Virus record (IMG/VR): IMGVR_UViG_3300006868_000042
Location: 1 to 37,650 of that record
Reading direction: 5' to 3' (one strand)
DNA: 37,650 nucleotides
Origin: a virus
Numbering within the stretch: position 1 is the first letter of the stretch; each line of letters starts with the position of its first letter. This document shows positions 20,111-37,650 of the stretch, piece after piece. Both the position numbers and the translations under genes were made by a program. The notes below the pieces were generated by a model. The model was not told the DNA's origin. It did no database searches and worked only from the letters and a program-made list of their open reading frames with translations.

Positions 20111-20524
20111 TTAATTAAATAATTTTTGTTGTAATAAATCCTTTGCATAAACAAAAGTGTTCTTATACTTATAACTCTCTTTTATATTTGCTTTTACATA
20201 GTCTTCACTGTAAATACCTTCAATATAAGCGTATTTATCCTTAATTTGAATAAATACATAGAAGTCTGCCCTTAAATGTTTAGAGAGACTTTCTAAAGAG
20301 CAATTAAAGGTGTAGGTTTTTTTAGAAGTAGCTTTGACTTGGTAAGTGTAACCTTTATTACAAGCAAAATCAATTCCCATGTAATCTCTATCTAACGACT
20401 GATCATGAATAGTTTCACCTTGAAAGTTCTTAAGGAACCAGCTTTTGAAAGCTAGCTCCCCAAGTTCCCCGGTAGATCTATTATTAAAATCAGACAAATC
20501 TATTTTAGCAACGTATCTTCTCAT
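20111..20524 (-). CDS. PD-(D/E)XK nuclease-like protein
   Basis: A 137-residue protein. STGELGELAFKSWF supplies Glu20 and Glu23, GIDFACNKG supplies Asp52, and YTYQVKATS supplies Gln62 and Lys64. This order (E, then D-x(9)-QxK) is the restriction-endonuclease fold core with Q in place of the usual second acid, as in several resolvases and phage nucleases. It overlaps the MazG gene by one base. A role in recombination, host DNA cleavage or DNA processing is possible. Confidence 0.62.
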   Translation of the reverse strand: MRRYVAKIDLSDFNNRSTGELGELAFKSWFLKNFQGETIHDQSLDRDYMGIDFACNKGYTYQVKATSKKTYTFNCSLESLSKHLRADFYVFIQIKDKYAYIEGIYSEDYVKANIKESYKYKNTFVYAKDLLQQKLFN

Positions 20525-20844
20525 TAGGCTTCTTTTACAAATGTTCCGTTTTCCATTTTACCTTTACGCTTAGCAATAACACTATAAGCCTCATTAACAC
20601 AAGATTCTAAAGTAATATCAATTCCATACTTGATCTTAGCTAACTCAGCTACGTTAGTTAGTACTACAACACAATCACCAATAGCATCAATGATCTCTGG
20701 AATATCATCTTTTAGCACTGCTTTTGATAATTCTCCAGCTTCTTCATAAAGCTTTAAAGTTTGTGTCTTTACATCTCCTTTTTCGAAGATTCCTTTGTCT
20801 TTTGCCCATTCTCTAATTGAGCTAAATTCGTTTTTTAATTCCAT
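20524..20844 (-). CDS. MazG-like nucleoside triphosphate pyrophosphohydrolase
   Basis: A 106-residue all-alpha NTP pyrophosphatase. KLYEEAGELSKAV holds the EExxE metal motif, and IIDAIGDCVVVLTNVAEL holds the paired D/D motif. ESCVNEAYSVIAKRKGKM is the usual C-terminal signature. It would cleave an NTP or dNTP to the monophosphate and pyrophosphate. It lies 12 bp downstream of the predicted dCMP-specific ThyA homologue, so a dCTPase role feeding that enzyme is an attractive inference. Lowering of ppGpp or general dNTP cleaning are alternatives. Confidence 0.82.
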   Translation of the reverse strand: MELKNEFSSIREWAKDKGIFEKGDVKTQTLKLYEEAGELSKAVLKDDIPEIIDAIGDCVVVLTNVAELAKIKYGIDITLESCVNEAYSVIAKRKGKMENGTFVKEA

Positions 20845-20856
20845 AATTTTTAATTT

Positions 20857-21636
20857 TTATTTTTTCACTTTTACTTCTAATCTTGAATCCGGATTATAGT
20901 TTTCTAAAATCATCTTATCATAGCTGAACTCACTAAACTTTGGACAGTTTACTAAAGTTGGTAAGGCTTTCTTTTTACGCCCCGCATAAATCGCTGCTTT
21001 TGAAACATGCTCCTCGTATAAATGGCAAGCTGCTGCGTTTATAATGACTTCACCAGGTTTTTTATTAAGTTCTTTAGCTATTATAGATAAAATAGTGGCG
21101 TACATTCCTACATCATAAGGCAATCCAATAAATAAATCTAAAGACCTCATTGATACGACAATATCAATATGGTCCGGGTAAGTAACTAATTGAAAAGCAT
21201 AATGACAAGGAGGTAGTTCCATCTCGTTAATTCTAATAGGGTTCCACATACTTATTAGGTGTCTTCTTGAAGTATAGTTAGACTTAAGATCTTTAATAAG
21301 GTTTTTAAGTTGGTCAACCCCTTCAAAATCCCTGATTTGTTTACCATAAACTGGTCCTAAATCACCATCTTCTTTTGCCCATTGATTCCAAATGGTAACG
21401 CCCCTTTCTTGAAGAAACTTTACATTTGTTTCTCCTCTTAATAACCACTCAACCTCAACAAATATACTTTTAGGAAAAATCTTTTTACCTGTTACAATGG
21501 GAAAACCTTCCCTTAGATTGGCCCTAATCTGGATTCCTGTTAATTGGCGAACCTTTCCATTCCTGGAATTTATTTTTTCTCCTTTCTTAGCCACTAAGTG
21601 TATAGCTGCCGAATAGTTTTCTTCGTAAGTATTCAT
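20857..21636 (-). CDS. Thymidylate synthase homologue, predicted dCMP hydroxymethylase or methylase
   Basis: A 259-residue ThyA-family protein of full length. Conserved parts are EVEWLLRGETN (Glu61), GDLGPVYGKQ, SRRHLISMWNP (Arg pair), the nucleophile in LPPCHYAF (Cys144), MRSLDLF (Arg164, Ser165) and CHLYEEH (His205, Tyr207). The dUMP-specifying Asn of thymidylate synthases (LPFNI) is Asp175 here (LPYDV), the same change found in T4 dCMP hydroxymethylase and in synthase mutants that accept dCMP. The KQWRAW tryptophan is Ile101, which may open the site to water. I therefore predict a folate-dependent 5-hydroxymethylation or methylation of dCMP. Overlap with DUF6378-like and MazG genes places it in a nucleotide module. 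Confidence 0.8.
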   Translation of the reverse strand: MNTYEENYSAAIHLVAKKGEKINSRNGKVRQLTGIQIRANLREGFPIVTGKKIFPKSIFVEVEWLLRGETNVKFLQERGVTIWNQWAKEDGDLGPVYGKQIRDFEGVDQLKNLIKDLKSNYTSRRHLISMWNPIRINEMELPPCHYAFQLVTYPDHIDIVVSMRSLDLFIGLPYDVGMYATILSIIAKELNKKPGEVIINAAACHLYEEHVSKAAIYAGRKKKALPTLVNCPKFSEFSYDKMILENYNPDSRLEVKVKK

Positions 21637-21637
21637 A

Positions 21638-22039
21638 CTACCTATGTCTATTACTCATTTTATACCCCAATGTCTTTTCGTAATCCTCATCAAACTTTTC
21701 AAAAGCTGTTTTAGGCCTCAAAGTTTTTTCGTAGGCTTCGTCGTATTCTTCATCACTTAGTCTGTTATTAGGGCTCCCTTCTTTTTCTAAGAAGTTATTT
21801 AAGGACCCTAAATAAGCCACAGCGTCAAGTAAGTTATCTTCTTTATGGGCATAGCTCTGACGAGCCATTTTAAGAGCCACTAACACATTATAAGCATCTA
21901 CTATAGAAATCTCTTTATTGCTCATTATAGAGGCTAATTTAGCCGTTTTAAGCATACACTGCTGAAACGGTCCATACTGTCTTTCTTTTTCTTCTGATCG
22001 TTCGTTCACGATCTCATTTGCTTTTTCTAAAATATTCAT
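21638..22039 (-). CDS. DUF6378-like helical phage protein
   Basis: A 133-residue helical protein. RSEEKERQYGPFQQCMLKTA, then ISIVDAYNVLVALKMARQSY and EDNLLDAVAYLGSLNNF match the DUF6378 pattern (RxxxYGxxxxxF..., KxAR, DNxxDxxxY). The C-terminus is charged and repetitive (DEEYDEAYEKTL and DEDYEKTL). Function unknown; the family tends to lie near nucleotide enzymes in phages, as it does here. Its stop is one base from the ThyA-homologue start. Confidence 0.7.
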   Translation of the reverse strand: MNILEKANEIVNERSEEKERQYGPFQQCMLKTAKLASIMSNKEISIVDAYNVLVALKMARQSYAHKEDNLLDAVAYLGSLNNFLEKEGSPNNRLSDEEYDEAYEKTLRPKTAFEKFDEDYEKTLGYKMSNRHR

Positions 22040-22306: not shown

Positions 22307-22349
22307 CAAATATAAGTATATTCTGTTAATAAATGAAACTTTTTTAACA
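22307..22349 (-). promoter_or_regulatory. Promoter P2 with 26-bp operator-like palindrome
   Basis: The -7 element TATATTTG (22307-22314) lies 9 bp after the 26-bp palindrome (22324-22349), which is identical to the P1 copy. The palindrome overlaps the stop codon of the DnaA-like gene, and no terminator lies between, so read-through from P3 can add to P2 output. It directs the nucleotide, endolysin and terminase genes. Confidence 0.82.
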
Positions 22350-23039
22350 ATTTAATTGTAATAGTGTTCTTTTTATTTGATCTTCAATCTCTTTAACAGC
22401 TACTCTAAGTTTAGAGTCATAAGGCATACCTTCTGCGATTTTTTTATTACCGTGTATAAAGGTTGTTCTATCCCTATTAATAATGTTAGTTAATATAGGA
22501 CCAAATTGAGAGTAAGAAATGTATCTCTCAAAACAAAAGTAACTGATCAAGTGTCTAGCTACTGGGAGTGGGTTTTTTCTACTCTCTCCACATAAAGCAT
22601 TTACAGTTACATCAAAGTAATTAGCAACACAGTCAACAACAGTTGTTACATATTTCTCAACCTCAACGTCAATGTCCTTAACTCTTTTATTTGGATCAGT
22701 TACTGCTCCATCATACTGAATAGAGTAAGATAAAGCTCCTTTGATCCTATCTCTAACTTCATATTCTCCGTTCTTGATAAAATTGATATGTTCATCGTTG
22801 ATAACTTCAAATATAGGGCTCATTTCTAATCCGTGTTCAACAGAACAGGATAAAACAGCGTGTAGAATACTACCTAAATGATGAGCAACCCCGATAATAT
22901 CGTTAGCTTCTTTAGCATGTTTATAACCTTTTATATCAAAGTTAATTACGTTCAAATCAAAATTTGATTTAGTGATAGGTCTATTACTAATTTGTTGACC
23001 GTTAGCTTTGTTGAATTTTTCTATTTCTTTCCTTTTCAT
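22344..23039 (-). CDS. Degenerate MazG-like domain fused to DnaA domain IV-like DNA-binding domain
   Basis: About 231 residues from the ATG at 23039, which lies 2 bp after the preceding stop; an ATG at 23072 would overlap that gene. Residues 41-90 (AKEANDIIGVAHHLGSILHA, then GLEMSPIFEVINDEHINFI) follow the last two helices of MazG-like pyrophosphatases, but the catalytic Asp of the LGD motif is Ser57. Residues 138-205 (VANYFDVTVNALCGESRK, ARHLISYFCFERYISY, INRDRTTFIHG) match the C-terminal helix-turn-helix of DnaA, including the RDxxTxxHG signature. It is probably a phage origin-binding or regulatory protein. The AAA+ domain of DnaA is absent. Confidence 0.68.
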   Translation of the reverse strand: MKRKEIEKFNKANGQQISNRPITKSNFDLNVINFDIKGYKHAKEANDIIGVAHHLGSILHAVLSCSVEHGLEMSPIFEVINDEHINFIKNGEYEVRDRIKGALSYSIQYDGAVTDPNKRVKDIDVEVEKYVTTVVDCVANYFDVTVNALCGESRKNPLPVARHLISYFCFERYISYSQFGPILTNIINRDRTTFIHGNKKIAEGMPYDSKLRVAVKEIEDQIKRTLLQLNC

Positions 23040-23041
23040 AT

Positions 23042-23209
23042 TTAATTGTTTTCTATTTTTCCTACTCTCCAAAGTTGTTCTTTAATAAACCATAAATCGT
23101 CAAAACCTTGTTTCAATGATCTATTATCCTTTTGTGTACAAAGTCTAGCTTGATAAGCTTCTAAAAGAACATCTATTTTTTCTATTGCTTGTAAAATTCC
23201 ATCATCCAT
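23042..23209 (-). CDS. Small helical hypothetical protein
   Basis: A 55-residue protein from the ATG at 23209 (MDDGILQAIEKIDVLLEAYQ, then FDDLWFIKEQLWRVGKI). It fits exactly between the 91-residue gene (1 bp gap) and the DnaA-like gene (2 bp gap), which supports its being real. Largely amphipathic helix; it could be a binding partner of the DnaA-like protein. Family not recognised. Confidence 0.6.
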   Translation of the reverse strand: MDDGILQAIEKIDVLLEAYQARLCTQKDNRSLKQGFDDLWFIKEQLWRVGKIENN

Positions 23210-26421: not shown

Positions 26422-27297
26422 TTAATTGTTATTGTCGTCTCCGCACATTGAGAAAATATCACAGCTTTCTTCAAATAAATCAAGCTGCTCTGATGTTTCA
26501 GAACTATCATCTTTAACAATTAAGTCAACGGCATTTTCAATATACCATTCAGCAGATCTGTTTTTTCTAAAGAATGTTATCTTATAATTATCAGATTTGC
26601 CTTCAAGACTTCTTGATTCAGGGATAAAATTTGAATACTCTTCTTCAAGGATCTTAAAAGAATTAAATTTTTCAGGAGCTTCAAAAGCAATCTTTAGAAG
26701 TTTTTTTTCTGACTTCTTCCAACACGTTTTGCAATTGCCTTGATAACCTTTTAACTCTAATCTAAAAGGCTGTTCATCCCACCATGAGTTCACTTTTGTC
26801 TTTGTTGTTTTTACTTCTGTTACTAATGGATAAAGAAGTTTGTGTTCTTTTCTTTTACTGTTTATTCTGTCAATCTCATCATACCTTATTCCAATTGCAG
26901 TATAGTAATCTTTCCAACCTATACTTCTTAAATAGCTTTTAATTGGCTGGAGTTTTAACTCTCTATTACAATGAGGATAAGAATTGTTTGGTATTCCATA
27001 AACCTGAATCATTTCTTCAAAAAGTCTATTTGACCTTGTAGCCGTTTCAAAGTTTACTATTTTATGTGTAGTTCCTTTACCGTGTTCTTTATGAAAAACT
27101 CCCTCAACCCAAATAACTTCAATATTAAATAGATTAGCGCATCTTTCTACAAATAAAAGAGTCTCTTCATTTTCTTCTCCAGTATTAGCAAAAACAACTT
27201 TTATCTCATACTTATCTTGCCAATTGTTTAAAATCCAATAAAGCATATATCCTGATGTTTCTCCACCGCTAAAACTTACAAGTAACTTCTCTTTCAT
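26422..27297 (-). CDS. PP-loop (PAPS reductase/DndC-like) family enzyme
   Basis: A 291-residue protein. LLVSFSGGETSGYML is the adenylate-binding PP-loop (SGGxxS), VVFANTGEENEETL the following strand-loop, YPHCNRELKLQPIKSYL a Cys-containing motif, and YYTAIGIRYDEIDRI the second nucleotide contact. CKTCW near residue 199 and a Cys-containing C-terminus could bind metal. Relatives reduce PAPS, thiolate tRNA or act in DNA phosphorothioation. No partner of those pathways is visible, so the substrate is unknown. Its position between replisome organiser and helicase suggests work on nucleotides or DNA. Confidence 0.75.
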   Translation of the reverse strand: MKEKLLVSFSGGETSGYMLYWILNNWQDKYEIKVVFANTGEENEETLLFVERCANLFNIEVIWVEGVFHKEHGKGTTHKIVNFETATRSNRLFEEMIQVYGIPNNSYPHCNRELKLQPIKSYLRSIGWKDYYTAIGIRYDEIDRINSKRKEHKLLYPLVTEVKTTKTKVNSWWDEQPFRLELKGYQGNCKTCWKKSEKKLLKIAFEAPEKFNSFKILEEEYSNFIPESRSLEGKSDNYKITFFRKNRSAEWYIENAVDLIVKDDSSETSEQLDLFEESCDIFSMCGDDNNN

Positions 27298-37177: not shown

Positions 37178-37650
37178 TAATCTAACTCGTTATTATTATC
37201 GTTTAAAAATTCGTCTCCTCCTTCTTCTAAAGCCTCGATACCTAAAACACTTGTCCTAATCTCGTTAATAGTCATTACTCTACTCATTAACTCCTCAGAA
37301 CCTAAAATATCAATAGGCTTAAGAGGTTTAATCTTAGATTTAACGTTGATACCGTTACGCTCTAATACTTTATCTAAATTCTCTTCTATAACTGCCTGAG
37401 AAGGTCTAATTACCGTATTCTGATAGTACTCCATATTAGCACGGGTTAAACTATCCTCCGATTGTAAACCGGTAGCTACTTTAATACCTGCTAAAGCCAT
37501 AGGAGTACGATGAGCCATTATAATCTCTTCAGATACTTTTCCGTTAAGTAGAGTAAACATTTCGTGAGAGTCGTTTACCGGAATAGATTCTACCATAGTC
37601 TTCATATCCGGATTCGTAGACCAAGTTACTACTACTTTACCAGCGTTCTC
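37177..37650 (-). CDS. Portal protein (C-terminal part, continues from the start of the window)
   Basis: This is the C-terminal third of the portal gene. From 37650 the frame is continuous and repeats the 80 bases at 1-80; the nonredundant part ends at 37177. The segment NTVIRPSQAVIEENLDKVL is a typical portal C-terminal helix, followed by an acidic end (EALEEGGDEFLNDNNNELD). Joined to bases 875-1 it makes the roughly 422-residue protein. The first internal ATG at 37605 is not the real start. Confidence 0.88.
   Translation of the reverse strand, partial: ENAGKVVVTWSTNPDMKTMVESIPVNDSHEMFTLLNGKVSEEIIMAHRTPMALAGIKVATGLQSEDSLTRANMEYYQNTVIRPSQAVIEENLDKVLERNGINVKSKIKPLKPIDILGSEELMSRVMTINEIRTSVLGIEALEEGGDEFLNDNNNELD
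37571..37650. repeat. Terminal direct repeat, copy 2 (circular overlap)
   Basis: Identical to bases 1-80. See copy 1: it closes the circle inside the portal gene. Confidence 0.95.

Follow-up and report, generated by a model that had tools for sequence, protein, structure and literature searches.

Which nucleotide does a phage thymidylate synthase homologue act on when the residue that selects the base has been exchanged, and does its product end up in phage DNA? We address this question for the IMG/VR record IMGVR_UViG_3300006868_000042; the whole stretch analyzed, 37,650 bases at 33.6% G+C, is called the window here. Its first and last 80 bases (1-80 and 37571-37650) form a direct terminal repeat, over which the contig circularizes to 37,570 bases; the joint falls inside an ORF that matches a portal protein. 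The large terminase subunit is closest to those of Flavobacterium phage 11b (52%) and Cellulophaga phage phi10:1, which makes a Bacteroidota host likely.

The locus itself is a closely spaced run of minus-strand genes for a DUF6378 protein, a ThyA-like protein, a MazG-like protein, and a protein of 137 amino acids. The same strand also carries a gene for a PAPS-reductase-like protein in the replication region (26422-27297; PF01507, PHROG 424) and one for a phage protein whose C terminus is a DnaA DNA-binding domain (22344-23072; PF08299), a possible replication initiator. A preliminary description had singled out positions 20524-21636, a span that combines the MazG and ThyA genes.

With somewhat more confidence than doubt, we propose that this run is a conserved phage cassette in which a cytosine-specific methylase is fed by MazG.

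The ThyA-like protein and its relatives

The ORF at 20857-21636 (minus strand) encodes a full-length, 259-residue member of the thymidylate synthase (TS) family, as evidenced by a match to PF00303 over residues 7-257 (241 bits; E=1.4e-71), Cys144, Arg124/125/164, and the RSxD motif (Ser165 and Asp167). The catalytic set is intact (Arg25, Glu61, Arg124/125, Cys144, His145, Arg164, Ser165, Asp167, His205, and Tyr207). When this protein, hereafter the query, is aligned with E. coli ThyA (a reference sequence with checked length and key residue numbers), T4 gp42, and phage TS, Asp175 (codon 21112-21114, minus strand, computed from the ORF start at 21636) falls on E. coli Asn177 and T4 gp42 Asp179. 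The preliminary description, which had read the gene as a complete ThyA homologue with an Asn-to-Asp change and had proposed alignment to ThyA and T4 gp42 as a check, was correct in this respect. It had also placed Ile101 at the Trp of KQWRAW; this holds for the first Trp (E. coli Trp98), but that residue is not the solvent-gating Trp. Phe104 occupies the position of the second Trp of the motif (E. coli Trp101), and the solvent-gating Trp80 and Trp83 of E. coli TS are kept as Trp83 and Trp86.

Two hallmarks of a canonical dUMP-specific TS are replaced: Asn at E. coli position 177 is Asp175 in the query and Asp clade-wide, and the C-terminal -P-x-A-V/I tail reads VKVKK in the query and VNVIK or PEVVL in relatives. 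The residue set of the dCMP methylase type (Asp177 together with Trp80, Trp83, Leu143, and Asp169) is present as Asp175, Trp83, Trp86, Leu141, and Asp167. According to work cited in PMC8670742, the single change N177D/N229D turns TS into a dCMP methylase.

Relatives were collected by two pattern scans and one alignment-based scan of IMG/VR, which yielded ~70 loci (31 distinct proteins) more than 45% identical to the query. The ~30 distinct relatives, all from uncultured phages, are 47 to 62% identical to it, and every one has the Asp, a count to be read knowing that the search patterns of the first two scans themselves contained this residue. Asp is likewise found in 69/69 fetched loci (31 distinct proteins) that match [VI]V[ST]MRSLD, a motif that excludes the base-selecting Asp. 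Because the catalytic residues are all kept and all 69 motif-matched loci share the Asp, the change is not a chance event. Further marks of the clade are Leu/Ile at E. coli position 98, Phe at 101, the changed C-terminal tail, and Met at 165; 19/19 clade members share the Gln165-to-Met exchange with T4 gp42, and Gln is kept in 39/41 Asn-type proteins. The preliminary description had assigned the enzyme to cytosine nucleotides, and Asp175 with the coupled Gln165-to-Met change, both common to T4 gp42, agrees with this assignment. A cytosine nucleotide is thus the predicted substrate, with high confidence.

Identity to normal TS is 34 to 40% overall, and the best named-phage matches are ~39% identical, with those aligned being Asn-type. 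Given this resemblance and the intact catalytic residues, the query might be regarded as an ordinary dUMP-specific TS that tolerates the Asn-to-Asp exchange. We consider this highly improbable: the Asp is invariant in the clade and coupled to Gln165Met and to the changes at W98 and W101, and the MazG/DUF6378 gene context described below was not seen within 1 kb of Asn-type ThyA genes at the main threshold. A role as a CMP (ribonucleotide) hydroxymethylase of the MilA/BcmA type is less probable still. Those enzymes too carry the Asp (PMC5175136), but Lys133 and Ala176, to which MilA owes its ribose preference, correspond to Arg124 and Ser165 in the query, as in deoxyribonucleotide enzymes, and MilA-type CMP specificity was therefore rejected.

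In trees built with FastTree and with iqtree (61 taxa) after removal of the Asp/Asn column, the query clade has support of 1.0 and 100, respectively, and is placed among other Asp-type proteins (n=17, support 100). A large marine group of Asp-type proteins has an Asn-type protein as its sister (support 100), and another Asp group, the third, branches elsewhere in the tree. This scattering indicates either repeated gain or repeated loss of the change. A further Asp-type lineage (L029, L036, L041, L052, and L116) has a PFD motif and mostly TS-like tails, with MazG absent nearby; its members are possible dCMP methylases. Origin from a bacterial prophage was rejected: among 84,980 bacterial and archaeal genomes scanned, 80 loci at 34 to 45% identity were retained, of which Bacillales supplied the majority and none was a clade member.

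MazG, DUF6378, and a nuclease candidate

The MazG gene (20524-20844, minus strand) begins 12 bp downstream of the ThyA-like ORF and encodes 106 amino acids. Its product belongs to the MazG nucleoside triphosphate pyrophosphohydrolases, as evidenced by a PF03819 match above the cut-off (31 bits versus 22; E=2.4e-7), a PHROG MazG match (E=7e-33), and an intact metal site, E34E35xxE38 ... E50xxD53, of which EExxE/ExxD is invariant in 16 relatives. An adjacent MazG-like gene had been reported in the preliminary description, together with a functional tie to ThyA; comparison across genomes bears out both. The order DUF6378-ThyA(Asp)-MazG recurs in all 27 distinct clade loci with adequate flank (>400 bases on both sides of ThyA), whereas neither MazG nor DUF6378 lies within 1 kb of ThyA at any of 79 Asn-type viral loci at the main threshold (Fisher p ~1e-25, with related loci treated as independent) or at any of 23 T4-like loci. 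At a looser threshold, a MazG-like neighbor appears at 2/86 Asn-type loci, both in very large phages. MazG is also widespread in phages without ThyA relatives of the query kind, which is a caveat to this association.

The pairing returns in the marine Asp-type lineage, which arose separately from the query clade, where MazG is found within 1 kb of ThyA in 78/81 cases. There it forms the C-terminal part of a protein of 250 to 290 amino acids whose N terminus resembles T5orf172/MUG113, which we take to belong to the GIY-YIG clan. Such fusions lie directly downstream of the Asp-type ThyA gene (e.g., L224:1112-1906, L146:4066-4869, and L155:5972-6766, with ~90 similar marine loci). Taken together, the clade-wide Asp, the fixed cassette, and the marine pairing of Asp-type ThyA with MazG make a dedicated dCMP chemistry fed by dCTP breakdown a well-supported prediction. 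It is quite probable that MazG acts in the ThyA(Asp) pathway, and its genomic context suggests that it prefers dCTP.

The constant upstream partner of ThyA, a DUF6378 protein (21638-22039, minus strand; PF19905, E=2.6e-10), is directly adjacent in 27/27 distinct clade loci. The idea that it is a hidden MazG was rejected, since profile comparison gave a probability of 1% and its low-confidence model (pLDDT 62) had no fold match in Foldseek.

The 137-residue neighbor (20111-20524, minus strand) often comes next after the cassette, being no more than 1 kb away in 18/27 clade loci. An alignment shows E23, D52, and Q62-x-K64 to be invariant in 8 relatives, and Foldseek matches its AF2 model (mean pLDDT 78) with probability 1.00 to the BisI-family enzymes Eco15I/NhoI, followed by PvuII and Hjc, although the matches are weak (E ~1e-3, TM 0.47). 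The invariant residues and the modeled fold point to a probable PD-(D/E)XK nuclease; any role in cutting unmodified DNA is speculative. Hydroxymethylated DNA is spared by the endonucleases of T4, and on this model the cassette might represent a widespread strategy of uncultured phages that combines a nuclease with a dCMP methylase and a dCTPase, so that phage DNA would contain 5-methylcytosine throughout and the nuclease would cut plain-cytosine DNA of the host or of competitors. The linked nuclease would then be the PD-(D/E)XK protein in the query clade and the GIY-YIG-like domain fused to MazG in the separate lineage. We regard this extended reading as tentative and rather unlikely.

Predicted product and possible fate of the modified nucleotide

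The study of the T4 ternary complex (PMC6400193) links hydroxymethylation to an Asp at the third residue ahead of the catalytic Cys, a Ser-x-Tyr motif, replacement of Trp83 by a small residue, and the absence of a TS tail. The query has the Asp of hydroxymethylases at the base-selecting position (Asp175, equivalent to T4 gp42 Asp179), but the signature just described is missing. Rather than a water-activating Asp or Glu, Leu141 stands three residues ahead of Cys144, as does Leu in 19/19 clade representatives, whereas T4 gp42, SPO1 gp29, and 10/10 T4-like proteins have Asp. Pro95-Val96-Tyr97 replaces Ser/Thr-x-Tyr, a weak feature because Ser is missing from the aligned column in SPO1 gp29 and in most T4-like proteins too. 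E. coli position 83 still has a Trp (Trp86), and the protein ends in a tail as long as that of TS but altered in sequence. At E. coli positions 143, 83, and 147, the proven hydroxymethylases T4 gp42 and SPO1 gp29 have Asp, Val/Phe, and Thr/Asn, whereas 19/19 clade proteins agree with TS in having Leu, Trp, and His. SPO1 gp29 hydroxymethylates dUMP and came by the Asp, and by Phe at 83, independently.

The TS-type gate is thus intact in the whole clade (Leu141, Trp83, Trp86, and His145 in the query). The sole departure from TS among the product-deciding features, and a point against methylation, is the C-terminal end (..PVAI) by which TS is sealed for hydride transfer; this end is KVKK in the query and VNVIK/PEVVL in relatives, and T4 gp42 has no TS-type C-terminal tail. 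Because the residues for hydroxymethylation are absent and the gate is kept, methylation is the better prediction. Of the two products offered in the preliminary description, 5-hydroxymethyl- or 5-methyl-dCMP, the residues speak against the first and for the second, and we moderately favor a methyl product.

A T4 gp42-style dCMP hydroxymethylase, leading to 5-hydroxymethylcytosine in DNA that is possibly capped by two glycosyltransferase-like gene products, would fit Asp175 and the MRS motif common to T4 gp42, the altered C-terminal tail, and two ORFs at 901-1653, glycosyltransferase-like by eye only, and 2230-2928, which has a weak GT2 match (E=0.015). However, beyond the missing signature and the clade-wide TS gate, these ORFs lie in the structural-gene region, away from the cassette; the 901-1653 protein was found in no other clade record, and PF00535 glycosyltransferases had no match in 17 clade records. 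Glycosyltransferases were accordingly rejected as part of the system, not being shared within the clade, and a hydroxymethylase of this kind seems to us the less likely reading. In the window, the two ORFs flank a hexapeptide acyltransferase gene (1650-2240; minus strand across 901-2928).

On the methylase reading, MazG would break down host dCTP, which yields dCMP and leaves less ordinary dCTP available. ThyA(Asp) would bind dCMP via Asp175, Cys144 would attack C6, and a one-carbon unit from methylene-tetrahydrofolate would be added at C5. Since the TS-type solvent gate is kept, this unit would most likely be reduced by hydride transfer, giving 5-methyl-dCMP, which host kinases may raise to the triphosphate for entry into phage DNA. 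The preliminary description had seen no dedicated kinase, and the phage-type dNMP kinase PF21448 was indeed absent in 17 clade records. TS-type methylation yields dihydrofolate, and the finding that the clade records encode no dihydrofolate reductase therefore counts against a methylase, as does the missing kinase for its product.

We think it reasonably probable that the modified product is incorporated into phage DNA, where modified cytosine perhaps protects it. DNA methyltransferases of the C5, N6/N4, and D12 families were found in none of 11 clade records, while at least one occurs in 3/3 cultured flavobacterial relatives (p=0.003, from a tiny sample of partly incomplete records), a contrast that fits nucleotide-level modification taking over that role. 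Restriction-site counts are harder to read. The window avoids C-containing palindromes (GGCC, CGCG, and CATG at 0.25, 0.38, and 0.38 of expected), whereas GGCC is near neutral (at least 0.75) in 6/11 clade records and at 0 to 0.20 in three flavobacterial relatives without the cassette. T4 has GGCC and CGCG at 1.02 and 0.97 of expected; since these sites are still avoided in the window, unlike in T4, protection may be incomplete, recent, or absent. SPO1, with GGCC at 0.04, avoids the site as well. With T4 unaffected, SPO1 avoiding, and the clade mixed, avoidance was rejected as a readout of modification for being ambiguous; the counts are compatible with partial relief from restriction-site avoidance. 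In the record of a clade mate (L065; L435, L436), GATC, CATG, CTAG, and GCGC stand at 0.05 to 0.06 of expected, pointing to strong restriction pressure.

The persistence of this avoidance, together with the low G+C content of the genome (33.6%), would also suit a nucleotide-pool device in which MazG converts dCTP to dCMP, ThyA(Asp) methylates it to 5-methyl-dCMP, and dCMP deaminase makes dTMP, supplying thymidylate to an AT-rich phage. 5-Methyl-dCMP is a substrate of dCMP deaminase, and deaminase-like genes lie near Asp-type ThyA in two related contigs (L043:5176-5568 and L201:600-1034, both minus strand). Yet such a gene was found in only 1 of 11 clade records searched and not in the window, an ordinary TS would be a more direct source of dTMP, and Asp177 enzymes track modified DNA in the MetaGPA study (PMC8670742). 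We judge this scheme doubtful.

Significance and comparison with known systems

To our knowledge, full replacement of cytosine by 5-methylcytosine has been documented for very few phages (Xp12). If our reading is correct, an Asp-type clade that retains the methylation gate would turn the dCMP methylase route from a rarity into something common. The clade also permits a direct test of the residues that decide between methylation and hydroxymethylation, and its enzymes are candidates for making 5-methyl-dCMP. Moreover, the repeated linkage of Asp-type ThyA to MazG, seen in two lineages, could provide a genomic rule by which cytosine-modified phages are predicted from their sequence.

The query has the TS fold, the base-selecting Asp, Met in the xMRS motif, and the catalytic Cys in common with T4 gp42, to which it is 27% identical over 162 residues. 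T4 gp56 is a dCTPase, and partnership with a dCTPase is a further presumed likeness. The two differ in that the query lacks the hydroxymethylation features of T4 gp42 (Asp145, Ser94, Val85, and the missing C-terminal tail) and has its partner, MazG, in its own cassette, without a dNMP kinase of its own. The predicted product, 5-methyl-dCMP, links the query to the E. coli N177D and L. casei N229D mutants of TS and, by description, to the Xp12 dCMP methylase, which like the query have Asn changed to Asp in a TS-like site. Unlike the mutants, the query form is natural and clade-wide, with an altered tail, Gln165Met, Trp98Leu/Ile, and Trp101Phe.

For MazG, the comparison is with human DCTPP1, an all-alpha, MazG-like dCTP pyrophosphatase of the same superfamily whose substrates include 5-modified dCTP (PMC4491611, PMC7162842), whereas dCTP hydrolysis by the phage protein is only proposed; no DCTPP1 chain appears among the PDB sequences that the phage MazG profile matched. 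Our literature search found no paper that treats dCMP hydroxymethylase together with MazG.

A precedent is MetaGPA (PMC8670742), in which Asp177 is found in most environmental contigs whose cytosine is modified, and TS domains co-occur with PRA-PH, a MazG-like pyrophosphohydrolase, and with dCMP deaminase. Position 147 also differs there between modified and unmodified contigs; the query clade keeps His at 147, and, unlike the MetaGPA contigs, the window has no carbamoyltransferase among its annotated genes. We did not find the fixed DUF6378-ThyA-MazG order reported for the MetaGPA proteins. The association of Asp177 with cytosine modification was thus already known (PMC8670742); new here are the fixed cassette, its recurrence in two lineages with different nuclease-like partners, and a clade whose active site is of the methylase type.
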